Source: Psychroserpens ponticola (GTDB taxonomy: Bacteria > Bacteroidota > Bacteroidia > Flavobacteriales > Flavobacteriaceae). Taken from it: 64,000 nucleotides of DNA. Numbering within the stretch: the stretch's first letter is position 1; the number at the start of each line of letters is the position of its first letter. This document shows positions 7,973-32,580 of this stretch, one piece after another. Location of the stretch: positions 124,001 to 188,000 of the forward strand of contig NZ_CP116221.1 in NCBI RefSeq assembly GCF_023556315.2, in the 5' to 3' direction. Under the pieces are notes generated by a model that did not search any database, was not told the DNA's origin, and was given only the letters and a program-made list of their open reading frames with translations. The translations under genes and the position numbers were made by a program.

Positions 7973-10900
7973 TTACAATTGTTCAATATCAAAATAGGTT
8001 ATTGAATTATTTGAATTTACAGTTACTCCAGTTGCTCTTTGGTACGCAATATCAATGGTTTGTCCAGCGGTTAGCTCTAGCAAACTGGTAATTTGTCGGA
8101 TGATATTACCAGTTCCTGAATGATTATAAGCTGTTATTCTTACTTGACTACCATCAACGCGAATACGTATATCAAAACTACCAGTTGATATTGATGAATT
8201 AATTGCTATTTGAGCATTAACTCGATAAATACCATCTTCAGGAACAATAAATACGTCAGTGGCAGTATCAAAATTATTCCCTATATCAAAACCTTCAGTA
8301 TCAAATACGACTTTAGTGGTCCCACTACCCGAATTGCTTTGGTCAGCACTTAAGGTTAAGTGAGCAGCAGCTTTTTGAGGATTTAAACTAGAAAGATTTA
8401 TGGTTTGTGGAACTTGTCCATCGTCTTCCATTTCTAGAGTTAGTACATTAGATGATGAATTAAAAGTGAAGGTGTCTATTTGTTGGTTGTCTGTGCCTGT
8501 ACCATCTTGTAATGACGATAGGTCTAATGTCTGAGTGGCTTGTCCATCATCTTCTAAAGAGATTTCGAGATCAGTGCCATTAAGATTTAGAACATCAATA
8601 GTTTGGTTATCAGTATCTGTAACCGTTGGAATATTTTGAAATGTAACATTACCAGTACCATCTGTAGTCATGACTTGACCATTTGCACCATCGGTTAATG
8701 GCATATTGTATTCGTCATTAATATTCATTAGGCCATTTTTGTAAATAGTTAGTGCATTACTTCTAGAGGTAGTAATAGTACCATTACCAACTGTAAATAC
8801 ACGATCGTTAGCATGCCAGCTAGCTGTGCTATTTTGTGCATAAGTTGAAGCGAAAGTTCCAACTGTCATTTCTCCCCATGAAGGAGCATTGTTTTGCAGT
8901 CCCATAGCTACAGCTGCACTGCCAGAAGCAGTACTGCGATATCCATGTGCAAATGTATTAGTATTGGTAGCATTGTTTTCTACGCCAAAAGTAATGCTGT
9001 AATTTGATGATGATGAGTTATTACTTCCAACAGAAAAACTTGCGGTACCACTACTAATATTGCTTACACCAAATGCTGCAGATGAGCCACCTGAAGCTGT
9101 ATTGTTATTTCCAAATGCAACGGATCTATCACCAGAGGCTGTTGTGCTATCACCAAAAGCTACAGAATTACTACCAGATGCGTCTGTTAAAAAGCCAAAA
9201 GCTACAGCCTGATTTCCTGAAGCCTCAGTTCTATTTCCAAAAGCAGTTGCATAGTCTGATGTTGCTTCAGTTAAATAGCCAGAGGCCATTGAGTAATTTC
9301 CAGATGCTGTTGTGTTCACACCAAAAGTTACAGCACTTGCACCAGAAGCTGTGGTCTCTTCTCCAGTTGCGAAAGCTAAAACTCCAGAAGCTGTATTACT
9401 AAAACCAGTTGCAGTTGAACCTTCTCCTGATGCTATATTTGAATCACCAAAAGCTGTAGAGTAATTTCCAATATTTGTGTTATCCCATTCAGTATTAGAT
9501 GTTGTTCCTGCTCTAAAAGCTGATTTTCGAGGATTGAAAAATAGTCGTGTTCCTCCACCTGACAATGATATAAGATCACCACTTCCATAGGTGCCAGTAA
9601 TTTGAAACCCATCTTCTCCACCAATTTCAACAGCGCCATTATCTGCTATAATTAAACGACCATTGCCAATACCACCTTCGTCATAAGCTTCATCCAATGT
9701 GTTTTGCGTGTTTCCATCACCAACAATGTCTTGAAAGCTCAAATTTCCTGAGCCATCTGTAATCATGACTTGGTTATTTGACCCATCTGTTAATGGAAAT
9801 GTATAACCAGTTGTCACTGGGTTACCTATTTGAAATTCACCATTGATTCTAAGAATATTATTATCAAATTCACCATAAATAAGAGCATTATTTGCATCTG
9901 CATTAGAGTTTTCAATATAAAGTTTTTCTGAGCCCATTTCAAAATATCCAGATTGATAACCGATAAAAACATTTTTGCTTCCAGTGCTGTTAGTGTATCC
10001 TGAACTTGAGCCTAAAGCCACATTTCTAGCTCCTGAATCATTATTTAATAAAGACCAATAGCCTAGAGCCGTATTATAAGATCCATCTGTGTTAGAATTT
10101 AAGGAACCTTGACCAATTGCTGAATTAAAACTTCCTGAGGTATTTGCTGATAGTGTGCCATTTCCGAATGCAGAATTATTAGTTCCACTTAAATTATTAG
10201 TTAAGCTAAAAGATCCAGTAGCAGTACTATTCATTCCTATGGTGTTAGCCTGCATTGCTTGGTAGCCAATGGCTGTATTTCCCCAACTAGAGATATTGTT
10301 TTGTAAGGCTTCAAATCCCATACCAACATTAAAATTATGTGTACTGTCATCATTAGCACCAGCGTTAACTCCTAAAAATAGAGAAGAACCATTGTCTGTG
10401 CCATCATTATCACTTTTTCCGTCTATTAAATCATCTATTTTTTCTACACCAGCTAAACTAGATAAGTCTATTACTTGTGAACTTCCATTTTCTATGCCAA
10501 TTGTAAGATTTGTACCTGAGAGCATAGAGCCTGATATGTTTTGGTTATCTGTATTTATTGCTGCATTTTGAAACGTTACATTTCCTGCACCATCTGTTGT
10601 CATTACTTGTCCGTTTGTACCATCAGTTGCTGGTAAATTGTATCCATTTACTGTATTGGTTCCAACATATACGCTTCCAAGAAAATACCCAGCCCAATTA
10701 TTTGTTCCTGCTGCTGTATTACTAATTTCTGAATACACACCATATTTGTTACCTGTGCCAATTCCAGTTACAAAAAGACGCGTTCCATAAGCAGCTCCTC
10801 CAGTACTTGAAGCAATAACATGTGAATAGGTTCCGTACCTGCTATAAGAGTTTAAGCCACCACCTCCAACAAAATTATGAACGCCATATTGTATGCCAGC

Positions 10901-12424
10901 TCTCTCTGAGGCTAAACTGTTTTTTGTACCGTAACTGTCGCCATTACCAGAAGTTAAAGCAATATAGTTTTTGTTTCCAATCATTTCACCACTACTATTA
11001 CCAATAATATAATTATCTACACCTGTTCTGTCTCCTGGAGAGTCATTATTAAAGGAATTATAAATACCTAGTTGATTTCCAGCTAAATCTGTTGAAAAAA
11101 CAGAATGTATTCCTGTTTTTAAACCAGTACTTGTAGTAGTATCAAAAATATTGTAAATGCTGTTATTTGAACTACTACCATTGTGTAGATTGTTTATATA
11201 AATTCCATAAGTTTTATCAGATGCAATATCTAGTTTACCATTAGGTGAAGTTGTTTTTCCGATACTTATATCTTCTGAAATACCATCAGTAGGATGTAAA
11301 AATGAACCTGCATTTGTCCAATCATTATCATCTACAGCCACAATATCACTGAATGTAACATTACCTGATCCATCTGTTGTCATTACTTGTCCGTTTGTAC
11401 CATCAGTTAGTGGCATGTTATAGGCATCGTTTATATTCATTAGCCCACTTTTATATATGGTAAGCGCGTTGCTTTTTGTGAAGAATGTTTCTCCATTACC
11501 AATGGTAAATAATCTATCATTTGAATCAAAAGATAAATTAGCAATAGCTGAATAATTTGTAGAAAACATTCCTATGGTCGTTTCAGCAAATGAAGGTGCC
11601 GTTGTATACCAGCCACTTGCTGTAGCTGCGTACCCATCTGCAATGGTGTATCCACCATAACTTGTTGAATACCATCCATTAGCAGTTGTGCTAGCACCAA
11701 AAGCAGTTGAATAATGATTGCTAGCATTTGTGTCAAAACCAAAAGAAGTTGCTGAAAATCCTATAGCATGCGTAGAAGTCCCAAAGGCTGTAGATTGAGC
11801 TCCAGATGCCTCATTGTTTAAACCAAAACTCGTTGATCTTACTCCAGAACTTTCATTGCCTATTCCAAATGCAACTGAATGTTCACCTACATTAGAAGAA
11901 TTCCATTCATTTGAACCGGCTTCACCAGCTCTAAAAGCTGCTTTACGCGGATTAAAGAACATTTTTACACCTGCTCCAGAAAGATTTATGTTATTGCCGC
12001 TTCCAAAAGTACCAGTGACTTGAAAACCGTCTTCACCAGAAACTTCAACAGCACCATTGTCTGCGGTAATTAGTCTACCATTACCACTTCCTCCTTCATC
12101 ATAAGCACCATCTAATGTGTTTTTTGTATCTATTCCAACCACCGAAATCCAATTCGTAGTTCCATTGTCCCAATAATAAAAGCCTTTAGTTGGAGCACCA
12201 TTACCTGTTACAAATACCATCATACCATTTTGCTCAGAACTAGGATTTGGACTTGGAAAATTATCTATTCTAGGTATTAAAATACCATCTGTATTAGAAG
12301 GTGTTGTTGTATTAGATGCTGAAATATCTAAACTTGCCTTTGGGTCTGTGTTACCAATTCCTACTTGAGCAAAACCTGCTAAAGAGGTCAGTAACAGAAT
12401 CAATATAAATTTTACTGTCTTCAT
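7973..12424 (-). CDS. giant exported fibre protein with YadA-like head repeats and C-terminal C1q/TNF-like domain
   Basis: Protein of 1483 residues. A signal peptide (1-20, ending GFAQ) is followed by VGIGNTDPKASLDIS, an opening typical of Bacteroidota surface fibres. Two copies of an adaptor module (NTLD-AYDEGG to FFNPRK-AFRAG, about 102-165 and 907-970) each precede a block of 14-residue head repeats of the form SxAFGxxxxASGxx (about 175-275 and 975-1180). Each block is followed by a neck and the linker MNIND-YNMPLTDG. A middle block (about 680-860) has NxAxGxxxL repeats like phage and fibre heads. Residues about 1352-1483 look like a C1q/TNF jelly roll (VPEDGIYRVNAQIAI, LLELTAGQTIDIAYQ). 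No T9SS tail or YadA membrane anchor is visible. It is probably a trimeric surface fibre. It follows the LRR gene by 31 bases. Confidence 0.85.
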   Translation of the reverse strand: MKTVKFILILLLTSLAGFAQVGIGNTDPKASLDISASNTTTPSNTDGILIPRIDNFPSPNPSSEQNGMMVFVTGNGAPTKGFYYWDNGTTNWISVVGIDTKNTLDGAYDEGGSGNGRLITADNGAVEVSGEDGFQVTGTFGSGNNINLSGAGVKMFFNPRKAAFRAGEAGSNEWNSSNVGEHSVAFGIGNESSGVRSTSFGLNNEASGAQSTAFGTSTHAIGFSATSFGFDTNASNHYSTAFGASTTANGWYSTSYGGYTIADGYAATASGWYTTAPSFAETTIGMFSTNYSAIANLSFDSNDRLFTIGNGETFFTKSNALTIYKSGLMNINDAYNMPLTDGTNGQVMTTDGSGNVTFSDIVAVDDNDWTNAGSFLHPTDGISEDISIGKTTSPNGKLDIASDKTYGIYINNLHNGSSSNNSIYNIFDTTTSTGLKTGIHSVFSTDLAGNQLGIYNSFNNDSPGDRTGVDNYIIGNSSGEMIGNKNYIALTSGNGDSYGTKNSLASERAGIQYGVHNFVGGGGLNSYSRYGTYSHVIASSTGGAAYGTRLFVTGIGTGNKYGVYSEISNTAAGTNNWAGYFLGSVYVGTNTVNGYNLPATDGTNGQVMTTDGAGNVTFQNAAINTDNQNISGSMLSGTNLTIGIENGSSQVIDLSSLAGVEKIDDLIDGKSDNDGTDNGSSLFLGVNAGANDDSTHNFNVGMGFEALQNNISSWGNTAIGYQAMQANTIGMNSTATGSFSLTNNLSGTNNSAFGNGTLSANTSGSFNSAIGQGSLNSNTDGSYNTALGYWSLLNNDSGARNVALGSSSGYTNSTGSKNVFIGYQSGYFEMGSEKLYIENSNADANNALIYGEFDNNILRINGEFQIGNPVTTGYTFPLTDGSNNQVMITDGSGNLSFQDIVGDGNTQNTLDEAYDEGGIGNGRLIIADNGAVEIGGEDGFQITGTYGSGDLISLSGGGTRLFFNPRKSAFRAGTTSNTEWDNTNIGNYSTAFGDSNIASGEGSTATGFSNTASGVLAFATGEETTASGASAVTFGVNTTASGNYSMASGYLTEATSDYATAFGNRTEASGNQAVAFGFLTDASGSNSVAFGDSTTASGDRSVAFGNNNTASGGSSAAFGVSNISSGTASFSVGSNNSSSSNYSITFGVENNATNTNTFAHGYRSTASGSAAVAMGLQNNAPSWGEMTVGTFASTYAQNSTASWHANDRVFTVGNGTITTSRSNALTIYKNGLMNINDEYNMPLTDGANGQVMTTDGTGNVTFQNIPTVTDTDNQTIDVLNLNGTDLEISLEDDGQATQTLDLSSLQDGTGTDNQQIDTFTFNSSSNVLTLEMEDDGQVPQTINLSSLNPQKAAAHLTLSADQSNSGSGTTKVVFDTEGFDIGNNFDTATDVFIVPEDGIYRVNAQIAINSSISTGSFDIRIRVDGSQVRITAYNHSGTGNIIRQITSLLELTAGQTIDIAYQRATGVTVNSNNSITYFDIEQL
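8890..9480 (-). repeat. 42-bp-period head-repeat DNA, second block of fibre gene 1
   Basis: Coding repeats with a 14-codon period encoding (S/A)xAFGxxxxASGxx units. Copies are diverged at the DNA level. Boundaries are approximate. Confidence 0.75.
11600..11890 (-). repeat. 42-bp-period head-repeat DNA, first block of fibre gene 1
   Basis: A shorter block of the same 14-codon repeats (for example STSFGLNNEASGAQ). Copies are diverged at the DNA level. Boundaries are approximate. Confidence 0.7.
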
Positions 12425-12455: not shown

Positions 12456-13307
12456 TTATTCGTGTAGGATTTTCTTAACAGTCGTTTTGTTTTCAACTTG
12501 TATTTTTACTAAATACATGCCTGCATCTAGATGTATTAGATTTATGTGGTTTTGGTTTGAAGCTTTAGCAACCACTTTGCCGAGAATGTTATAGACGAGA
12601 ATGGAATCTACTGTAATTTCAAAAGCCACATTTAAGCGATTTGATGTTGGGTTTGGATATAGAGAAATAGAAGTATTGAGATTAAATTCGTCTATTGAAA
12701 GCGCATCACAATCTTCACTAAAACTAGTTTGCGAATCAATATTTGTCCAATTAGTGTTGCTATAGGTAATATCATCAACATTTATACAGTTGAGGTTGTC
12801 ATTTGAAGTTGCATTGAAGAATGTAATAATTTCATTAGTTCCATTTTGAACATTAAGAGATGTTAATTGGTTGTCTTCACATCTTAAATAATCTAAATTA
12901 GAATTAATACTAAGATCTAAAGATGTTAAAAGGTTGTCGTAGCATTTTAAATTGGTAAGTGCTAAGTTGTTACTCAAATCTAAGGAAGTCAAGAGGTTTC
13001 CGTTACATTTTAAATCGGTTAAAGCTAAGTTTTGTGAAAGATCTAATTCGGTTAAATTATTATTCCAGCATAGTAAGTTACTAAGTGCTGTAAAATCTTC
13101 TATTCCAGTAAGGTCTGAAATACCTTTACTAGATACACTTAAATTTGTAAGCGTATTAATATTTGCAGTTGGGACATAATCGTCTATCGGTTCAGAATCA
13201 TAACCTAGGTCGATTAATGCTTGTTCAAAATTATCATCTGGCACATAGGTGTTTTGAGAAAAACTTATTGTGTAAACGCATAAAAATAGTAAAGTAATTT
13301 TTTTCAT
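12456..13307 (-). CDS. secreted leucine-rich-repeat protein with T9SS C-terminal sorting domain
   Basis: Protein of 283 residues, exported across the inner membrane by a signal peptide (MKKITLLFLCVYTISFSQ) and probably across the outer membrane by type IX secretion. Residues about 85-165 hold four 21-22-residue leucine-rich repeats with the pattern LTSLDLSNNLALTNLKCYDN. Residues about 205-283 are a type A T9SS sorting tail: ISLYPNPTSNRLNV, then YNILGKVV, then LDAGMYLVKI and a basic KKILHE end. The fibre gene begins 31 bases downstream on the same strand, suggesting co-transcription. It is probably a binding or adhesion protein; the ligand is unknown. Confidence 0.88.
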   Translation of the reverse strand: MKKITLLFLCVYTISFSQNTYVPDDNFEQALIDLGYDSEPIDDYVPTANINTLTNLSVSSKGISDLTGIEDFTALSNLLCWNNNLTELDLSQNLALTDLKCNGNLLTSLDLSNNLALTNLKCYDNLLTSLDLSINSNLDYLRCEDNQLTSLNVQNGTNEIITFFNATSNDNLNCINVDDITYSNTNWTNIDSQTSFSEDCDALSIDEFNLNTSISLYPNPTSNRLNVAFEITVDSILVYNILGKVVAKASNQNHINLIHLDAGMYLVKIQVENKTTVKKILHE

Positions 13308-13333: not shown

Positions 13334-13534
13334 TTAAAGTTTTGCTACGACATCAAATGCACTTCTTACATCGCTTATGATGGTATTGGTGTAATAACTT
13401 ATAACTAGAAATAGTTCGCTAGCTATGAGTACAAATGGGTTAAGATTTCCCATTAACTGAATCGTGATATGACCAGCTAAGAAACTTGAATTAATAATTA
13501 TTAATGAGACAAGTAGTGTGGATATTTTAATCAA
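13334..13534 (-). CDS. possible small membrane protein
   Basis: Frame of 66 residues with a TTG start and two hydrophobic stretches (ISTLLVSLIIINSSFLAGHI and PFVLIASELFLVISYY), ending SAFDVVAKL. A perfect -7 box TAGGTTTG lies 28 bases upstream on the minus strand (13562-13569). It sits between the LRR gene and the hybrid sensor gene on the same strand. I do not recognise it. The promoter and hydrophobic pattern favour a real gene, but the non-ATG start and short length leave it uncertain. Confidence 0.42.
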   Translation of the reverse strand: MIKISTLLVSLIIINSSFLAGHITIQLMGNLNPFVLIASELFLVISYYTNTIISDVRSAFDVVAKL

Positions 13535-13569: not shown

Positions 13570-13688
13570 TTTGTAAACTCAAAAACTGACCTAGATTATT
13601 TTTTCAAAAACAGGTAGTATTTTGTCAAATGCAATAATAATCATAAAGATTATCTATTCATTTCAAATGTAATAATATTGATTTTGAG

Positions 13689-16600
13689 TTAGTTGCGAAA
13701 ATACGATGGACTTTCTCCAAATTCTTCTTTAAAAGCTTTGCTAAACCAGTTAGGGTCGTTAAATCCTGTAGAATATGCAATTTCTGAAATAGATAAATTG
13801 GAGTTTTTTAGTAATTCTTTCGATTTTTCAAGGCGTATTTTTCTAATAAAAATTGAAGTACTTGTATTAGAAATAGCTTTCAGTTTTCGGTAGAGTTGTG
13901 AATCACTCATAGTCATAAATTGAGCTAATTCAGTAGCTCCAAAATTAGAATCGTCTAAATGGTTATGAATCCCTTCTATAATTGTATTTAAAAAGATGAG
14001 GTTTTTATCTGTTGTTTGTTTTTTTAATTCTGTTTTTTCAGCGACTGTGTCTATCAAATAATTTTCTTGTAACTTTTTTCGTTTTGCGATGAGCATTTGC
14101 ATACGTAACAACAATTCTTCTTTTTGAAAGGGTTTGGTTAAATAAGCATCTGCACCACTAGAAATGCCTTCTAACTTATCATCTTGCATGGCTTTTGAAG
14201 TCAGCATCACAATAGGAATATGATTCGTTGCTATTTGCGCTTGAAGCTTTTGAGTCAATTCAAATCCGTCCATAACTGGCATCATAACATCTGTGATTAT
14301 AATATCTGGAATGGTTTCTTTTGCTTTTTCAAAACCGTCTAAACCGTTTTTTGCAAATGTTACTTTGTATTGCTCTTGTAAACATGAAGCAATATAACGT
14401 GCCATATCAGTATTATCTTCAACAATTAAAACGGAGTTGGTATCTTCGGGAGTTATGATATCATCTAATTGCGGCACATAAGTTTCGCCAATCGTGCTTT
14501 TTAATGCTTTTAGTTCTGGTGAGCTTAATTGAGCAGAGTTTTTTATTGGAAATCTAACTGTAAATGTTGTGCCTTGATTTACTGCTGAATGAACTTCTAT
14601 ATCGCCTTCCATAAGTTGAACCAATTCTTTGGTTAGTGATAAACCAATTCCAGTGCCTTGTGAGACTTTATAATCTTGGTTATCGACTTGAAAAAAGCGA
14701 TCAAAAATATGAGGTAACTCGTCTTCAGGAATCCCTAAGCCTTGGTCTATAACCTTAATTTCTAACTGATTATTTATTTTTTTTAAAGCAACAGTAACGT
14801 GTGTGTCTTCCGAAGAAAATTTGAGTGCATTAGAAATTAAATTGGTGAGTATTTGTCGCATTTTTTCAGCATCAAAATCCATTTTTAGTTCGTTAAATTC
14901 CGATTCGAACTTTAGAATTATCGATTTTTCCTCAGCAATACTAGAAAAACTATGTGTTAGGTATTGAATGTAAGATGCAACATCACTTTGTGTTGTATTG
15001 AGAGTTAATTTTCCTTGTTCTAATTTGGCTAAATCTAACATTTGATTAACCAAATGGAGCAGATTATTACTGTTTTGCTCAATAGTATTTATAGCAACAT
15101 TAATTTCTTCTTTTTCTGAGTAACGTTCTTTTAGATTACTTAAATACCCTAGAATTACAGTAAGTGGTGTTCTAAATTCGTGTGTAATATTTGTAATGAA
15201 TCGAGATTTTAAATCGTCTAAATCTTGAAGACGCTTAGATTCTTGTCCTGCAATTTGTCGCTGTAAGCTTATTTTATAAAAGGCGTAAACAATTCCCAAA
15301 AATAATAATAGGTAAGTGAGGTAAGCTAAATTACTCTTAAACCAAGGAGGAGTAACCGATATCTTCAATTCTAAAGGCGGTTTTTGCCAGAGGTTGTTTC
15401 TAGATGTTCCTTGTATTTGAAGGGTGTACGATTTTGATGATAAATTTAAAAGCTGAAGATTGTTTTTAGTATTTAAAGTATTCCAATCTGCGTCATCAGG
15501 CAACAGTTTGTATACATAGTTTGTGTTGCTGTTTGGTCTAAAATCTAGTGCAGAAAAACTTAAGTTTACTGGAAAATCATCATAGTTAAGATGAATTGAT
15601 TTAGTGTTAATAATGCTTGTTGGAATTACGTTTGATGATGCTATTGGAGACACATAAGCGTCTTTAATCTTTAGGTTGGTGAATTTTAATTCTCCTTCTT
15701 TGTCTAGTTCTCCAATACGTTTTGGATTAAAAATGTTTAAACCATTAATGCCACCAAAATACAAGTTCCCGTTATTGATGTTTTTGAACACAGCTCCAAG
15801 ATTAAATTCTGTACTTTGAACACCATCTTTCGGATTGTAATTAGCAAAGGTCTCTTCGGAAACATTAAAACTGAACAATCCGTCATTTGTGGATAGCCAA
15901 AGGTTTTTATTATCATCTTCAGTAATATTGTACACAAAAGTATTTGTGAGTCCGTCGCGTTTTCCGAAGGCTGTAAAATGATCTGTTTGCGCGTTGTATT
16001 TATTGAGTCCTTTTCTTGAGGCGACCCAAAGCGTTTCATTAGAATCTATAAACGCACTCAAAACACCTTTTGTAGCGAGTCCATTTGTTTCATCGTAATT
16101 TTTTATAAGCTTAAATACTTCATTTTCAATAGTAAATTTGCTCAAACCATTTTGTGTACACATCCAATAAGATCCATTTTGATCTTGAAGCATAGATAGG
16201 GTAAAAAGTGAAGGAAAGCTTTTGGCACTGTAATTTTTAAATTTTAAATCATTGTTTTTAATTGAACCTGTAAATTTTGAAAAACCAGAGTTATAAGTTA
16301 CAATCCAAGTTGTATTTTCATTATCGGTATATACACTTCTTAAATTTTCATTTGGGATTGATAATGGGTTGTTTTCTGAAACAGGAAGTCCAATAATTTT
16401 TGGGTCATTGAGGTTTAAATCATTTAAAGCGATAACGTTAGCACCTTTGTTTCCAACAAACCAAATATAATTCTCGTTGTCCTGTGTGAAGCTTCGAATA
16501 CGATCATATTGTGGTAAAATAATGTAGTGGTCAAGATTTTTATTGTCAGAAATGATTAAACCACTCGAAGTCCCTATAAATAAGAAGTTTTCAGTTTCTA

Positions 16601-17675
16601 TAACAGCAAAAACAGACGGATTTTTTAATTTAAATTTATCTGTAGGTTGTTCAAAAACAGGATTACTCTTAATAGCTGCAATGTCGAGATTTATGTTACC
16701 AATATATAGAAGTTCATTATCGTAGAAAAGCGTATAAATATCATCTGAATTAATCGTGTATGCATCATATTTTTTATCAGATTTGAAATGCTTAACAATT
16801 GTAAATATAGAATCACTATAAGTACATTTTAATAGACCTGAATTTGTAGCAATATAGTAGTGTTTATCGGTTTTTATGATGTCATTTATTTTGAAATTTT
16901 CTGAAGAATTAGTCGTTGATATGTTAACTTTTTCAGGAGTTAAAGTGTCGCTTAATTTGAAAATTCCATCATTTGAACAAATAAATAAGCTGTTGTTTAA
17001 AGCTACAATATTGTTGATTTGAAAAGAGGTTTGACAGATTTTATTGAGTGTAATAGTCTGATTTAATTTTTGGGTATCTAAATGAAAATTATAGAGACTT
17101 CCGTTTTTAGAAGCTAAATAAACCATGTCATCAATAACAGCAAGGCCTAAGATTTCTTTTGGGTTTTCAGAATTAAAGGTTAAGGGTATAACATGGTCAT
17201 TAGTTATGATTACTACACCTTGATTATAATACGTTGCTATTACTAAGGAATCATGGGTTGTAATCCTTGTGCAATTACTATCACTAATATGGAGTTGTTT
17301 AATAACCTCAGTTTGTAAATTAAGCGATAGGAGCCCTTTTTGCCCTGTGCCAATATATAAATTTGAGTTATTGGCCAGAATAGCACCAATTCGGTATCCA
17401 TTAATATCATCTGCTAACGGAACTACAAAATCATGTCCATCAAAACGCACCACACCATCTGATGTGCCTAACCATAAAAAACCATCTTTGTCTTTCGTTA
17501 TGCAATGAATGGTTTCTTGAGGTAATCCTTCGTTTAATCCATAATGGTCAAATATTAAGTTTTGAGCATAAGAAGATGAACTCCCAAAAAGAGCACACAT
17601 AATTAAACTTAAAATTCCAAAAAATAGGTGCTTTATGATTTGTTTCTTTTTATTATTAATGGCAAAAGTTCCCAA
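13689..17675 (-). CDS. hybrid two-component system regulator (Reg_prop sensor, kinase, receiver, AraC)
   Basis: One-protein signalling system of 1328 residues. An N-terminal signal/anchor segment (ending SSSYAQ) leads into two periplasmic Reg_prop beta-propellers (about 40-690, with repeats such as DGFLWLGTSDGVVRFDG), a Y_Y_Y domain (about 700-775) and a membrane helix near 780-800. The kinase follows: His in NITHEFRTPL near 830, N box LTNLISNALKF, and G boxes DQGLGIPEDE and GTGIGLSL. The receiver has its Asp in IITDVMMPVMDG near 1128, and a C-terminal AraC HTH ends in FGESPSYFRN. The start codon is TTG at 17675; there is no ATG before the signal segment, and an in-frame stop lies upstream. 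Such regulators usually control glycan loci, but no SusC/SusD pair is in the window. Confidence 0.95.
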   Translation of the reverse strand: MGTFAINNKKKQIIKHLFFGILSLIMCALFGSSSSYAQNLIFDHYGLNEGLPQETIHCITKDKDGFLWLGTSDGVVRFDGHDFVVPLADDINGYRIGAILANNSNLYIGTGQKGLLSLNLQTEVIKQLHISDSNCTRITTHDSLVIATYYNQGVVIITNDHVIPLTFNSENPKEILGLAVIDDMVYLASKNGSLYNFHLDTQKLNQTITLNKICQTSFQINNIVALNNSLFICSNDGIFKLSDTLTPEKVNISTTNSSENFKINDIIKTDKHYYIATNSGLLKCTYSDSIFTIVKHFKSDKKYDAYTINSDDIYTLFYDNELLYIGNINLDIAAIKSNPVFEQPTDKFKLKNPSVFAVIETENFLFIGTSSGLIISDNKNLDHYIILPQYDRIRSFTQDNENYIWFVGNKGANVIALNDLNLNDPKIIGLPVSENNPLSIPNENLRSVYTDNENTTWIVTYNSGFSKFTGSIKNNDLKFKNYSAKSFPSLFTLSMLQDQNGSYWMCTQNGLSKFTIENEVFKLIKNYDETNGLATKGVLSAFIDSNETLWVASRKGLNKYNAQTDHFTAFGKRDGLTNTFVYNITEDDNKNLWLSTNDGLFSFNVSEETFANYNPKDGVQSTEFNLGAVFKNINNGNLYFGGINGLNIFNPKRIGELDKEGELKFTNLKIKDAYVSPIASSNVIPTSIINTKSIHLNYDDFPVNLSFSALDFRPNSNTNYVYKLLPDDADWNTLNTKNNLQLLNLSSKSYTLQIQGTSRNNLWQKPPLELKISVTPPWFKSNLAYLTYLLLFLGIVYAFYKISLQRQIAGQESKRLQDLDDLKSRFITNITHEFRTPLTVILGYLSNLKERYSEKEEINVAINTIEQNSNNLLHLVNQMLDLAKLEQGKLTLNTTQSDVASYIQYLTHSFSSIAEEKSIILKFESEFNELKMDFDAEKMRQILTNLISNALKFSSEDTHVTVALKKINNQLEIKVIDQGLGIPEDELPHIFDRFFQVDNQDYKVSQGTGIGLSLTKELVQLMEGDIEVHSAVNQGTTFTVRFPIKNSAQLSSPELKALKSTIGETYVPQLDDIITPEDTNSVLIVEDNTDMARYIASCLQEQYKVTFAKNGLDGFEKAKETIPDIIITDVMMPVMDGFELTQKLQAQIATNHIPIVMLTSKAMQDDKLEGISSGADAYLTKPFQKEELLLRMQMLIAKRKKLQENYLIDTVAEKTELKKQTTDKNLIFLNTIIEGIHNHLDDSNFGATELAQFMTMSDSQLYRKLKAISNTSTSIFIRKIRLEKSKELLKNSNLSISEIAYSTGFNDPNWFSKAFKEEFGESPSYFRN

Positions 17676-26817: not shown

Positions 26818-29652
26818 TTACTTATCTATTAAGTAACCATTAATATTATAAGATCCGGCAGTTGAACTAACGGCTTCACCAGTGTCTACAAATATGGGGT
26901 TTATAAAAGAAATGAATCCTGCATTATTATTTGTTCCGCTACCATTATATACTGTAGTACTCGCCACAATTAAATCACTGTGAAAACCCAAATAATTAAG
27001 AATAACTAGGATTTTACCAGCTGGCACTGTATAAGTTGCATTGATATTGATAGGTTCACAATAGGCATCTACTAAAAATCCATTCACTTTCACTAATGCT
27101 AGATCTGCTTCTACGACACTACCAGAGCCTACAATTATTGGATTATTGATTGATTGATAATCAGCCGTGTTTTGCTGTCCAGATAGAATAGAAAAATTAC
27201 CATCAACAGTGAGGTCGGCAAAATTGGAATCACTAAAGACATTAGTAATATATAAATTTTTCCCTGCAGGTACTGTATAGTTATTTGCTCCTGTTAAATC
27301 ATTAAATGTTATAGGATCTACATTTGCAAATCCATCTGGATATTTTGGATTCATGAATGCTCGCATGTTTGCAGATGTACCACTAGAAATTTGTAATTCG
27401 TCTCCAGTTAAAGTTAAATCTTGTAGTTCGTTGGTAACATCACCATCTACTTCTGTAGGTATTGACCATGACGTAACTCCTGCACCATTTGTAGTTAATA
27501 CTTGATTTGCTGTTCCGTCTACATCAGGCATTAAATATCTATTAGTAGTTCCTGTACCTAAAGACATTCGTCCTCTAAAATAACCAGCATAGCTATTAGA
27601 TTTGGTTACATTGCTGTATATTCCATAATGAGTTCCTCCAGCAGATGAGTTAATATCTATATAGCTGCCATATTTTATTCCAGTACTCCAACCAGATATA
27701 GAGGTGCGTACACCATAAGTATTGCTCGTTCCTGTAATGTTATTTAGTTGGTTATATACACCTGTATGCTCAGAATTCAAATTGCCTAGTGTATGATTCC
27801 AAACACCATAGGATAAGGTGGCATTTGCCCTAAAATTATTTTCTATTCCTATCTGCATGTTAGAACTTCTCGAAAATAAATTCTCAATTCCAATATTTTT
27901 GCCATTTGCATTTGTCACCGAATAGAAATCATTTAAGACACCTCTGAATCCAGTTGAAAATGGATTCATTCCCGAATTTGTTCCTAAAACAAAAGAGTTT
28001 TTCAATCCAGTTGTGATTCCATTTACTGTACTATGTCTAATGTAATTGTTTATGGCATTCGACACTCCTATATTTGGGCTACTTGTTGGGTTTGTTCCCC
28101 ATAAACCTATATAAATACCATTATTATTATTATTACCATTTAAATAGGAATTAATACTCAGTGTACTATCATTATTACTATCTATGTTAGAAGAAGAGAG
28201 GTCAAGTATTTCTGACTCACCTATCATAGTGACTCTGCCATTATCTACATTAATAGTTCTTCCGGCTCCAGATCCACCTTCATCATAAGCTTGATCTAAA
28301 GTGTTTTGTGTATTAGTTAAAGACAATGTTGTAAAATTTATTTGTCCAGAACCATCTGTAGTTAATACTTGACCGTTAATTCCATCTGTAAGTGGCATAT
28401 TGTACTCGTCATTAATATTCATCAAACCATTTTTATAGATGGTTAAGGCATTGCTTCTACTACTACTACTAGTGCCATTACCTATACTAAATAGCCGATC
28501 ATTATTATTAAAAGTGGTTAAACTAGAAGGCGTATATATTGTAGAATATAAACCTATTGTAGTTTCTGCATACGAAGGTGCTTCGGTGTTACGCCCAAAA
28601 GCGGTAGAGTAATTTCCTGAAGCTTCAGTTGCAGAACCCAAAGAGGTAGAATAAGCACCTGAAGCTTCAGTTGAAGATCCAAACGAAGTAGAACGAACTC
28701 CTGTGGCTTCAGTTCCATATCCAAAAGTAGTAGTGTCATTTCCTGAAGCCGTTGAATTTCTTCCAAACGCCGTAGAATAAGTTCCTGATGCTACTGTGTT
28801 GTATCCAAAGGAAGTAGAATAATCTCCTAAAGCGCTTGAATTTCTTCCAAAAGAGGTAGAATACTCTCCAGAAGTTGTTGTATTGTCTCCAAAAGCAGTA
28901 GAATACTCTCCAGTAGCTGTAGAGTTGTTTCCAAAGGCAGTAGAATACTCTCCTGAAGCCGTTGAATTTCTTCCAAACGCCGTAGAATAATTCCCTGAAG
29001 CTTCTGTTATATATCCCAAGGCAGTAGTAGAAAATCCAGAAGCATCAGTTAAAATTCCTAAAGCAGTTGAATAATCTCCAAAAGATCTTGTGTCATATCC
29101 CAAAGCTGTAGAATAGTCTCCAACATTAGCATCATCCCAATTTGTTCCATTTACGTAACCAGCTCTAAAAGCAGCTTTTCGAGGATTAAAAAACATACGA
29201 GTACCTGAGCCAGAGGCTAAGATTGTTTCTCCAACTCCAAAAGTACCAGTTATCAACAAACCATCTTCGCCATTAATAGTTACTGCACCATCTGTTGCAT
29301 TAATAGTTTTACCATTTCCCACACCTCCTTCATCATAAGCTTGATCTAAAGTGTTTTTGCCTCCAGATGATAAAAACACCCAACCTGTACCTTGATTCCA
29401 ATAATAAAACCCTTTGCCTGAGCTACTAGTTCCAGTGTAAAAAATAAGCATTCCGTCACGTGTTGATCCAGGAGAAGCAGGAAAGGCACTCATTCGCGGA
29501 ATTAGAATACCATCACTATTTGTTGGACTTGAGCTGTTGCTTGCACTTATGTCTAAAGAGGATTGTGGGTTTGTGTTTCCAATTCCAACTTGGGCATTTA
29601 TAATTGAAATTGTAAATAATAGTACACAAAATATTAGTAGTCTAAAATTCAT
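26818..29652 (-). CDS. second exported fibre protein with YadA-like head repeats
   Basis: Protein of 944 residues, paralogous to the 1483-residue fibre at 7973-12424. After a signal peptide (ending SIINAQ) come VGIGNTNPQSSLDIS, an adaptor module with NTLDQAYDEGG (about 100) and FFNPRKAAFRAG (about 153), and one head block (about 174-354) of roughly a dozen 14-residue repeats such as ASGEYSTAFGNNST. The neck and MNINDEYNMPLTDG linker (about 409) follow, then a region of YGxxN-type pairs. The C-terminal part (about 780-944) is not C1q-like: it is two similar beta-rich units each containing YTVPAGK and ending NGFLVD or NGYLID. No T9SS tail is visible. The LytTR regulator gene lies 180 bases upstream. 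Confidence 0.83.
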   Translation of the reverse strand: MNFRLLIFCVLLFTISIINAQVGIGNTNPQSSLDISASNSSSPTNSDGILIPRMSAFPASPGSTRDGMLIFYTGTSSSGKGFYYWNQGTGWVFLSSGGKNTLDQAYDEGGVGNGKTINATDGAVTINGEDGLLITGTFGVGETILASGSGTRMFFNPRKAAFRAGYVNGTNWDDANVGDYSTALGYDTRSFGDYSTALGILTDASGFSTTALGYITEASGNYSTAFGRNSTASGEYSTAFGNNSTATGEYSTAFGDNTTTSGEYSTSFGRNSSALGDYSTSFGYNTVASGTYSTAFGRNSTASGNDTTTFGYGTEATGVRSTSFGSSTEASGAYSTSLGSATEASGNYSTAFGRNTEAPSYAETTIGLYSTIYTPSSLTTFNNNDRLFSIGNGTSSSSRSNALTIYKNGLMNINDEYNMPLTDGINGQVLTTDGSGQINFTTLSLTNTQNTLDQAYDEGGSGAGRTINVDNGRVTMIGESEILDLSSSNIDSNNDSTLSINSYLNGNNNNNGIYIGLWGTNPTSSPNIGVSNAINNYIRHSTVNGITTGLKNSFVLGTNSGMNPFSTGFRGVLNDFYSVTNANGKNIGIENLFSRSSNMQIGIENNFRANATLSYGVWNHTLGNLNSEHTGVYNQLNNITGTSNTYGVRTSISGWSTGIKYGSYIDINSSAGGTHYGIYSNVTKSNSYAGYFRGRMSLGTGTTNRYLMPDVDGTANQVLTTNGAGVTSWSIPTEVDGDVTNELQDLTLTGDELQISSGTSANMRAFMNPKYPDGFANVDPITFNDLTGANNYTVPAGKNLYITNVFSDSNFADLTVDGNFSILSGQQNTADYQSINNPIIVGSGSVVEADLALVKVNGFLVDAYCEPININATYTVPAGKILVILNYLGFHSDLIVASTTVYNGSGTNNNAGFISFINPIFVDTGEAVSSTAGSYNINGYLIDK
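28590..29120 (-). repeat. tandem 42-bp head repeats of fibre gene 2
   Basis: About a dozen 14-codon repeats. The 40 bases at 28741-28780 recur exactly at 28951-28990, five periods apart, while most other copies differ at several positions, a sign of recent duplication or gene conversion within the array. Confidence 0.85.
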
Positions 29653-29832
29653 AACAGATGTCTTTGAGGTGAATTTTAGTGGAAATAACGATGTGGGAAT
29701 GTAGGAGCGTTATTTGTGAAAAACCACTTGAAATTCTTATTAATAGCTAGTTAAAACTAATTAATAAGTTATGTTGCCAGTATTATATTTAGTAAATACA
29801 TTACTTTTTTTAGTAAACACAGATAATCTAGA

Positions 29833-30522
29833 TTATGTGCTTTTTAATTTACTCAATACCAAGCTTTTTTGTGAAGCGCTTATTGGAATGGGTTCGGTTT
29901 TTAAAACCAATTCATTGATACCAACCGAATCGATATGGTTCACATTTACCCAATAGGAACGATGTGTTTTAATAAAGTTATCCTTGTTTAATTGTTCCGC
30001 CATGTATTTTAATGTATGTGGCACTAAGTAGCTTTTGGAAGCTGTATACACATAGCAATAATTATCAAATGCTTTAAGGTACAAAATACTGTCTTGATTA
30101 ATTTTATGTAATCTACCTTCTGATTTTAACATTAAAAAATCAGAATTTCTTGACTCATAATTATGCCAAGCCAATTCTATATTGCTACGTAATCCAGCTT
30201 CGGTAAAAGGTTTTACGATATAACCTAAAGGATTTGTTTGTTTTACTCGAGCTACTGTTTCAGGATCGGTTTGAGAGGTTAAAAAGAGATAAGGAAGTTG
30301 CGCTTTGTCTAATTCTAAAGCTAAATCAACGCCATCTTGCGAACCTTCTAATTGAATGTCTATTAGAATTAAATCAGGTTGTAATGTTTTAATATCCTTT
30401 ATAGCGCTGATAACATCTTCGGCATCGCCAACAATTTTGTAGCCCTGTTTTAACAAGGCAGTTTCTATGGTTGATACAATTAAGGGTTCATCTTCTACAA
30501 TATAAATTTGTAATGCTTTCAA
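29833..30522 (-). CDS. LytTR-family response regulator
   Basis: Cytoplasmic transcription regulator of 229 residues. The receiver domain (1-115) has the acidic pair in IVEDEPLIV, the phospho-acceptor Asp in LILIDIQLEGS near 54 and Lys in YIVKPFTEAG. The LytTR DNA-binding domain (about 125-229) shows FDNYCYVYTASKSYLVPHTL and FIKTHRSYWVNVNHID. The start is TTG at 30522; an in-frame TAA lies six codons upstream and no ATG is available. The TPR kinase gene is directly upstream on the same strand, 108 bases away, so the two form a pair. The second fibre gene is downstream. Confidence 0.93.
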   Translation of the reverse strand: MKALQIYIVEDEPLIVSTIETALLKQGYKIVGDAEDVISAIKDIKTLQPDLILIDIQLEGSQDGVDLALELDKAQLPYLFLTSQTDPETVARVKQTNPLGYIVKPFTEAGLRSNIELAWHNYESRNSDFLMLKSEGRLHKINQDSILYLKAFDNYCYVYTASKSYLVPHTLKYMAEQLNKDNFIKTHRSYWVNVNHIDSVGINELVLKTEPIPISASQKSLVLSKLKST

Positions 30523-30630: not shown

Positions 30631-32580
30631 TTAAAGTAGGTTATACTTTTTTATAATTAATGTTGCTTCTGTTCCTTTATTTATTTCAGACCTATAATCT
30701 AATGTGGCTTTCAATTTCTTAGATAAAGCTTTCATTAAAGTAATTCCAAAAGATGTACTTTTAACTTCACCTTCAAAGCCTTTGCCATTGTCGATAACTT
30801 TTAATATCAAATGCTCATTTTCTTTATAAAACATAATATCTATACTGCTTTTTGAAGTAACTTCATCAAAAGCATGTTTTAAGGTGTTTACAATGAGTTC
30901 ATTTAAAATTAAACCAATTGGAGTAGTAGTCTCAATGTCTAAAACTAAAGGTTCTGCATTTAAATTATATGAAATTGATTCGGACTTAAACTGATGACTT
31001 TCAAAAATATCACGGACCAAATCACTAAAATAATCTTGGGTGTTAATTCCAATTAGTTCATCTTTATTATATAATCTTTGATGAATTAATACCATAGATC
31101 GCACTCTGTTTTCAGCTTCTTTGATGGCAATTTTAGCTTCCTTATCTTCAACGTTTTCAGATTGTAAATACAATAAACTAGATACAATTTGAAAGCTGTT
31201 TTTTACACGATGATGTGTTTCTTTAAGTAACACGTTTTTTTCATCTACAGAAACTTCAAGTAATTTTTTCTGCTTGGCAAGTTTAATATTCTGCTTTTTA
31301 TTTCTGTAAAAGAAAAAACCTAAAACTACAGCTAATAAAAGACCTAATACAGCTAAATAAGAATACAATTTACTTTGTTTTTCTTTGGCTTCAAGTTCTA
31401 ATGCATTTAGTTCTTCAGTTTTATTAAACGCATATTGCATTTCTTGTTGCGTTTGCTTTTTGATGTTATTTTCATTAAAAATAGAATCGTTAGTTTTAGT
31501 GAGTAGTTGATAATTTTCTAAAGCTTTATCAAATTGTCCAACAGCTTTATAAGCTTTAGATAAACAATCACATGCTTCAGAAGTTAATTCTAGATTTTCA
31601 GACTCTAATGCTAAGACTTTTGCACTTTTACACTCTTGAATAGCTAAATCGTATTTACCAGTTTCAAAATATAGATTTCCACGATAATTTTTTGCAATGG
31701 TTAAATTTTCAGTAATGCCTTCTTCTTCATAATATTGATGAGCTTCATTTAAATATGTTAGTGCTTCTGTATAGTTTTTTAACTTAGAATGTGCATTGCC
31801 TATATTTAAAGCTGAACTCATAATAAATCGCATTGGAGCTTTGCCTTTTTCTTTAAGTACTTTCCCTTTCTTAAATAGCTCGAGAGCTTCTTTGTATCGA
31901 TTTTGATTTAAAATCATTTCACCTTTATTGGAAATTATAATTCCAGCATTAACATAGGACTCTAGAGCTAGAGATGCTTTGTAGGCATTGTCATAATACT
32001 CGGAAGCTTTATCAAATTCTTCCATTTGATTGTAAAAATTTGCTAAAGAGTTGTTTAAAACAGAACTTTCACCTTTAAATTTATGACGTTGGGTTTCATC
32101 TAATTTTAAAGTATCGATTTTATCTAATGAACGTTTAGAATTCAGCATAGTTGCTAAAGCTAATGGTATATTTCCGTGCTTTCTGTAAATGGCGCTTTTG
32201 GTCATTAAATTTGATGCTCTTAAAAAAGGCATGGTCTCATCATTAACGTAAGATATAGACTTGTCTAAGTAAACTTCAGCCGAATCTAATTGACTATTGT
32301 AATAGAAATAATTACCTAAGGAGTAATAAGAATTAGCATACTGTTTTGGATTATTATTAGTTTTTGAAACGTTAATGGCTTTGTCAATTAAAACACGTGA
32401 ATCTTTTGAATAACGTAACTGACCAGCATTGCTTGTGAGGACTCTTATTTTTTCAAAATTATCATCGTATGTATCAACAACACGAATTAAGGAATCAATA
32501 AATTTTTGTTTATCTGTGTTATTTTGAGACTGCAAAACATATGAAAAACATAACAAGAAAATAAGGTAAATGTATTTCAA
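30631..32580 (-). CDS. TPR-containing sensor histidine kinase (HisKA_2 type)
   Basis: Membrane sensor of 649 residues. A signal peptide (MKYIYLIFLLCFSYVLQSQ) and a TPR-rich extracytoplasmic part (about 50-390) are followed by a membrane helix (about 397-418). The kinase core belongs to the HisKA_2/HWE-like group: the acceptor His lies in LKETHHRVKNSFQIVSSLL near 455. The ATPase domain has NELIVNTLKHAFDE and DNGKGFEGE. The start is TTG at 32580, with in-frame TGA codons close upstream. It is followed by the LytTR regulator, its probable partner. It lies 43 bases downstream of glycosylasparaginase and may be part of the same transcript. Ligand unknown. Confidence 0.93.
   Translation of the reverse strand: MKYIYLIFLLCFSYVLQSQNNTDKQKFIDSLIRVVDTYDDNFEKIRVLTSNAGQLRYSKDSRVLIDKAINVSKTNNNPKQYANSYYSLGNYFYYNSQLDSAEVYLDKSISYVNDETMPFLRASNLMTKSAIYRKHGNIPLALATMLNSKRSLDKIDTLKLDETQRHKFKGESSVLNNSLANFYNQMEEFDKASEYYDNAYKASLALESYVNAGIIISNKGEMILNQNRYKEALELFKKGKVLKEKGKAPMRFIMSSALNIGNAHSKLKNYTEALTYLNEAHQYYEEEGITENLTIAKNYRGNLYFETGKYDLAIQECKSAKVLALESENLELTSEACDCLSKAYKAVGQFDKALENYQLLTKTNDSIFNENNIKKQTQQEMQYAFNKTEELNALELEAKEKQSKLYSYLAVLGLLLAVVLGFFFYRNKKQNIKLAKQKKLLEVSVDEKNVLLKETHHRVKNSFQIVSSLLYLQSENVEDKEAKIAIKEAENRVRSMVLIHQRLYNKDELIGINTQDYFSDLVRDIFESHQFKSESISYNLNAEPLVLDIETTTPIGLILNELIVNTLKHAFDEVTSKSSIDIMFYKENEHLILKVIDNGKGFEGEVKSTSFGITLMKALSKKLKATLDYRSEINKGTEATLIIKKYNLL

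Follow-up and report, generated by a model that had tools for sequence, protein, structure and literature searches.

The locus examined here raises the question of how a long fibre, built from YadA-like head repeats and a terminal C1q/TNF-like domain, might reach and remain on the surface of a marine flavobacterial cell when it bears no visible anchor. We addressed it computationally in a window of 64,000 nucleotides from Psychroserpens ponticola (NZ_CP116221.1, positions 124,001 to 188,000), the whole stretch to which all coordinates below refer; every feature discussed lies on its minus strand. The fibre gene (7973..12424) is an exact and complete ORF encoding 1483 residues from an ATG start, and is recognized further by Pfam YadA_head and C1q matches. 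Residues 1-19 (12368..12424) are predicted to be a Sec signal peptide cut between A and Q (GFA/QVGIG); the Q occupies the same position in 73 of 74 relatives, and the junction fits the Q-rule described for Bacteroidetes (PMC5837995). There is no cysteine at this cleavage site and hence no lipobox that would mark an outer-membrane lipoprotein.

The mature fibre opens with an N-terminal domain (residues 20-95; 12140..12367; QVGIGNT..LDI..DGILIPR..GFYYW) that is conserved in its paralogues and 80 other loci. This is followed by a first YadA-head-like block with a 7/14-residue A[FTSM]G period (residues ~180-285; 11570..11887), a block of 'TGxxxGxYN' repeats discernible from the sequence (~410-590; 10655..11197), a block of phage-type 'TGSxNTAIG' repeats with ~35-49% identity to phage tail-fibre proteins (~700-850; 9875..10327), a second YadA-head-like block (~985-1180; 8885..9472), linkers, and a C-terminal jelly roll (1352-1483; 7976..8371). 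Pfam detects YadA_head (PF05658) over eight stretches, including the second block, with an E-value of 9.3e-12 (45.4 bits; cut-off, 25), and the head repeats match the BpaC, CbpF and YadA heads in the PDB. A sequence-only reading of this DNA had described two head blocks, one phage-like block and a terminal jelly roll; that order stands, but the account was incomplete, as it missed the TGxxxGxYN block and an internal duplication, whereby the collar-head-neck unit at ~97-360 recurs almost unchanged at ~905-1265.

The identity of the C-terminal tip is well supported by profile and modelling evidence, even though the Pfam C1q match to residues 1352-1483 (20.7 bits) falls below its cut-off of 23.7 bits. 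Among 75 relatives, 11 match C1q at E <= 1e-3, and a profile of 13 tip sequences recovers cerebellin and C1q chains with E-values down to 1.9e-21. An AlphaFold2 model of the tip (pLDDT 89.7), used as a Foldseek query, matched C1QL2 (E 2.1e-9; TM 0.78/0.82) and the phi812 spike knob (TM 0.84), as well as the C1QL1/3 and EDA structures. The solved C1q/TNF-type and spike-knob members are trimers, and the earlier proposal of a trimeric fibre thus fares well: the predicted fold of the tip belongs to a type that is trimeric in solved structures.

The family to which this fibre belongs strengthens the case. Modular fibres of this kind form a family in Bacteroidota, with about ten members in the source genome, and the N-terminal domain of the query fibre shows 41-63% identity to those of its paralogues, including the ones bearing Peptidase_S74 domains. 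Behind this shared domain, the 75 complete related tails carry different C-terminal domains by Pfam, namely S74 (43), C1q (11) and BclA_C (7); Peptidase_S74 is present in those 43 tails but absent from the query fibre. A second member within the window (26818..29652; 944 residues) ends in a different C-terminal beta domain. The family, therefore, keeps its N-terminal domain while tip and shaft are exchanged. Orthologues in two other genomes further indicate that shaft length varies between constant ends: they have 818 (G226) and 1534 (G338) residues, against 1483 in the query, with the same C1q-type end in all. S74, C1q and BclA-like domains are trimerization domains in characterized proteins, and the swapping of such devices behind a constant N-terminus offers the best sequence argument that the C1q-like domain trimerizes the fibre. 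Hence, an exported, trimeric fibre is the most likely reading, and we posit that it is a homotrimer.

The relatives show some variations on this theme. An S-x4-K pair constitutes the self-cleavage dyad of S74 chaperones, and it appears to be kept throughout the S74 domains of 50 fibres (28 of the 50 by pattern and the 22 others by eye); this suggests that the sister S74 fibres probably shed their chaperone. A separate cluster of four fibres has another N-terminal domain ('QGINYKA'; L025 6299-10202 and L026 3381-7681, at 3.851-3.866 Mb of the genome); three of the four end in S74, and the cluster is flanked by a hybrid two-component system (HTCS) and a propeller kinase with a LytTR regulator. 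A subgroup of ~400-residue fibres ending in 'WSCYVSAANTV..KSWKV' occurs without a two-component neighbour (L063, L071, L075, L086, L088, L089, L093 and L112), and in several of these loci a gene of ~400 codons lies within ~10 bp downstream.

As to the anchor, YadA_anchor is not among the Pfam matches of the fibre up to E 1, and neither the query nor any of the 75 related tails gave an NCBIfam match to a T9SS C-terminal domain (CTD); a CTD profile of our own likewise gave no match across the fibres. The gene 31 bp upstream of the fibre (12456..13307) served as the positive control: it encodes a leucine-rich repeat (LRR) protein with a T9SS type A sorting domain, which scored 2.1e-14 (TIGR04183) in the same run, indicating that the CTD test works. 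The C-terminal domain of the fibre matches no secretion or anchor family. Given that none of the 75 tails has a CTD and that their S74, C1q and BclA ends are trimerization domains, the missing anchor is a trait of the whole Bacteroidota family. No anchor could be read from the AlphaFold2 monomer model of the N-terminal domain either, since this low-confidence model (pLDDT 74) is mostly devoid of regular structure. Thus, the absence of both a YadA barrel and a T9SS tail, noted from the sequence alone, is borne out by Pfam and NCBIfam, and so is the departure from the classical trimeric autotransporter plan, there being no barrel and a C1q fold at the C-terminus. The anchorless fibre itself was read correctly there; what that reading lacked was the family-wide extent of the trait and the T9SS-exported LRR neighbour, along with the two-component system, candidate operator and small gene described below. 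As no outer-membrane export signal was found, the surface location of the fibre is something that we infer.

These observations bear on the possibility that the fibre is a T9SS passenger in disguise, crossing via SprA without a CTD of its own, with the C-terminal beta domain acting as a substitute or the fibre hitch-hiking on the CTD-bearing LRR protein. The source genome has a T9SS (SprA_N at C1:196005), and among 296 sampled Bacteroidota genomes all 36 with the N-terminal domain carry SprA while none of the 69 lacking SprA has the domain, although this co-occurrence is weak, being confounded by phylogeny, as the listed SprA-less genomes are mostly of one family. T9SS-CTD proteins are also concentrated around the fibres, at 0.42/kb within 200 bp as against 0.02-0.03/kb farther out, a ~15-fold difference. 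Such genes were seen less than 200 bp upstream of the fibres in L041, L062, L065, L067, L077, L082, L091 and L111. Against this, the CTD is missing from every one of the 75 tails; known CTDs are seven-stranded Ig-like sandwiches (PMC11285876, PMC10994853), distinct from the C1q jelly roll; and LRR homologues lie directly upstream of the fibre in L082 and L041, but no upstream LRR gene is present in L035 and L043. The fibre is hence not a recognized T9SS cargo, though it has a Sec signal peptide and the genome a T9SS, and we consider disguised passage through this system rather unlikely.

The preferred reading, an exported trimeric fibre, gains a regulatory dimension from the genomic neighbourhood, which gave the strongest signal of the analysis and an unexpected one. 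Upstream of the fibre lies an HTCS gene (13689..17675) with Reg_prop, Y_Y_Y, HisKA, HATPase, receiver and HTH_18 domains by Pfam, while the second fibre adjoins, again by Pfam, genes for a LytTR response regulator (29833..30522) and a TPR histidine kinase of the HisKA_2 type (30631..32580). In the source genome, a histidine kinase domain is encoded no more than 2.1 kb away from each of the seven fibre loci; with 46 histidine kinase loci in this genome, the chance of this is ~4e-8, as a product of random-placement probabilities that assumes independence and uniform placement. The kinases are of different types, namely propeller HTCS, TPR-HTCS, TPR-HisKA_2 with LytTR, TPR-HisKA_3 with LuxR, and TPR-His_kinase with LytTR, implying that the linkage is not one inherited neighbourhood. 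Across the 80 related Bacteroidota loci, which were chosen by similarity and are phylogenetically non-independent, the 151 kb lying within 1 kb of the fibres contained 30 histidine kinases, compared with 5 in the 611 kb situated 4-10 kb away (0.20/kb versus ~0.01/kb, ~24-fold). The ~400-residue subgroup has no two-component gene nearby, and without it the densities are 0.23/kb and 0.0095/kb. A kinase or regulator gene occurs within 1.2 kb in 36 of the 68 testable related loci and in none of the other 32. The fibre family is thus linked to two-component systems. This linkage and that of the candidate operators are the new points of the present analysis; searches of an open-licence library for S74, C1q or YadA fibres in Flavobacteria, one of them very narrow, turned up no account of such a system.

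Between the HTCS and the genes that follow it lies a tandem repeat, TTTGACAAAATACT-N6-TTTTGAAAAAATAAT (13595..13629), whose two half-sites are directly repeated with a period of 21 bp. Six orthologous loci retain this element, and no second match exists in the 4.03 Mb genome when up to 2 mismatches are allowed. The second fibre has its own element of the same period, TTTACTAAAAAAA-N8-TTTACTAAATATA (29784..29817), which is the sole exact match in the genome and recurs in L036, L037, L055 and L083. When direct repeats of >= 10/11 identity were counted at shifts of 12 to 40, 12 of the 36 two-component-linked loci had one at shift 21, three of which (L059, L094, L095) may lie in coding DNA, whereas no other shift gave more than 3; among the unlinked loci, shift 21 was seen in 1 of 42. 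Upstream of six of the fibre units tested in the source genome, shift 21 was best or tied for best, with a different sequence each time. Dimers of AraC-type or LytTR proteins would be expected to bind direct half-sites spaced two helical turns apart, and we accordingly treat these repeats as candidate operators.

Downstream of the first repeat is a small gene (13334..13534; 66 codons) in a frame missing from the initial ORF list, with a TTG (or ATT) start where other loci have ATG. Six loci, L035, L082, L043, L121 and L119 among them, have it after their orthologous HTCS, and it is under purifying selection, with a dN/dS of ~0.09-0.10 and most substitutions falling on third codon positions. 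A match in L118 (E 4e-4) was judged to be due to chance. The product of the small gene has two hydrophobic stretches, which hint at a small membrane protein. In L119 (5957-6251; genome G417), the HTCS, tandem repeat and small gene are conserved without a fibre downstream; hence, the HTCS may act primarily on the small gene. The gene order asnB-HTCS-small gene-[LRR]-fibre-polA is found in two further genomes. The LRR protein and the fibre are probably in one transcription unit, which would also take in the small gene at its head.

The linkage by itself gives no direction, and the fibre could conversely be an input that binds a ligand in the periplasm or at the surface and feeds the adjacent sensor, the more so as the sensor parts of the kinases (propeller or TPR) are probably periplasmic. 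Operator-like repeats placed between regulator and fibre are, however, the layout expected of an output, and the sensor types are unrelated to each other while the fibre N-terminus is conserved; we therefore regard such an input role as improbable.

We favour, with moderate confidence, the view that the fibre is a homotrimer exported to the cell surface and that the adjacent HTCS switches its production. Under this proposal, the chain would leave the cytoplasm via Sec and be cut at the A-Q junction; the C1q-like domain would then bring three chains into register, at the place occupied in sister fibres by the S74 intramolecular chaperone, after which the shaft would wind from its YadA-type and phage-type beta repeats. 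The N-terminal domain would form the base and the C1q trimer the distal binding tip, a polarity like that of phage tail fibres and the reverse of that in trimeric autotransporters. The HTCS, on sensing a periplasmic signal, would bind the tandem repeat at 13595-13629 and turn on the small gene, the LRR/T9SS protein and the fibre. More tentatively, and with some doubt on our part, we raise the possibility of a wider flavobacterial repertoire of CTD-less, C-terminally trimerized surface fibres, each with a private two-component system and a 21-bp-period operator, using an undescribed export route; were this so, a single cell could choose the fibre it displays from several insulated signals. Such fibres are usually labelled just as 'tail fiber domain' proteins, with no known export route or function, and the two-component linkage provides a concrete handle on them in the form of candidate operators, dedicated regulators and a conserved small gene. 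If confirmed, this would mean that a modular set of surface fibres is switched according to the environment, and it would bring to light either a CTD-independent use of the T9SS or a different export path in Bacteroidota.

Two further identities can be largely set aside. A prophage or contractile-injection tail fibre is suggested by the phage-type repeats, which match tail fibres, and by weak C1q relatives in viral contigs; yet the Sec signal peptide, the neighbours conserved across genomes (polA, an asnB homologue and the HTCS) and the absence of flanking virion genes make it highly improbable. A viral origin of the N-terminal domain was likewise rejected, as no relative of it was found in viral contigs. 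That the fibre is a classical trimeric autotransporter with a lost or hidden barrel is scarcely credible despite the YadA_head repeats and their BpaC, CbpF and YadA matches, given the absence of YadA_anchor, the C1q fold in place of the C-terminal YadA barrel, and the S74 or BclA_C ends of the relatives.

The fibre may thus be placed among known systems. It shares its N-terminal domain, shaft modules and signal peptide with the Bacteroidota 'tail fiber domain-containing' S74 proteins, the source-genome paralogues included, and differs from them in having a C1q-like tip in place of the S74 chaperone. With the trimeric autotransporter adhesins it has in common the left-handed beta-roll repeats of the YadA head, but it is devoid of a barrel anchor, interleaves those repeats with phage-type blocks and ends in a jelly roll. 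As in the C1q/TNF superfamily (C1QL1-3, cerebellin, BclA), an elongated protein is capped at its C-terminus by a jelly-roll fold, whereas the shaft here is of beta repeats rather than collagen, and the domain is bacterial and fused to an exported fibre. The combination of a modular fibre with a C-terminal trimerizing knob resembles phage tail fibres and spikes, such as the phi812 central spike with its knob (TM 0.84), though the gene is chromosomal, its product Sec-exported and its locus linked to two-component systems. Finally, in HTCS-regulated polysaccharide utilization loci a hybrid two-component regulator adjoins its surface-protein operon, and a similar arrangement is seen here, except that SusC/D and glycosidases are absent and the regulator would instead act on the genes for the fibre and the LRR protein together with the small gene.
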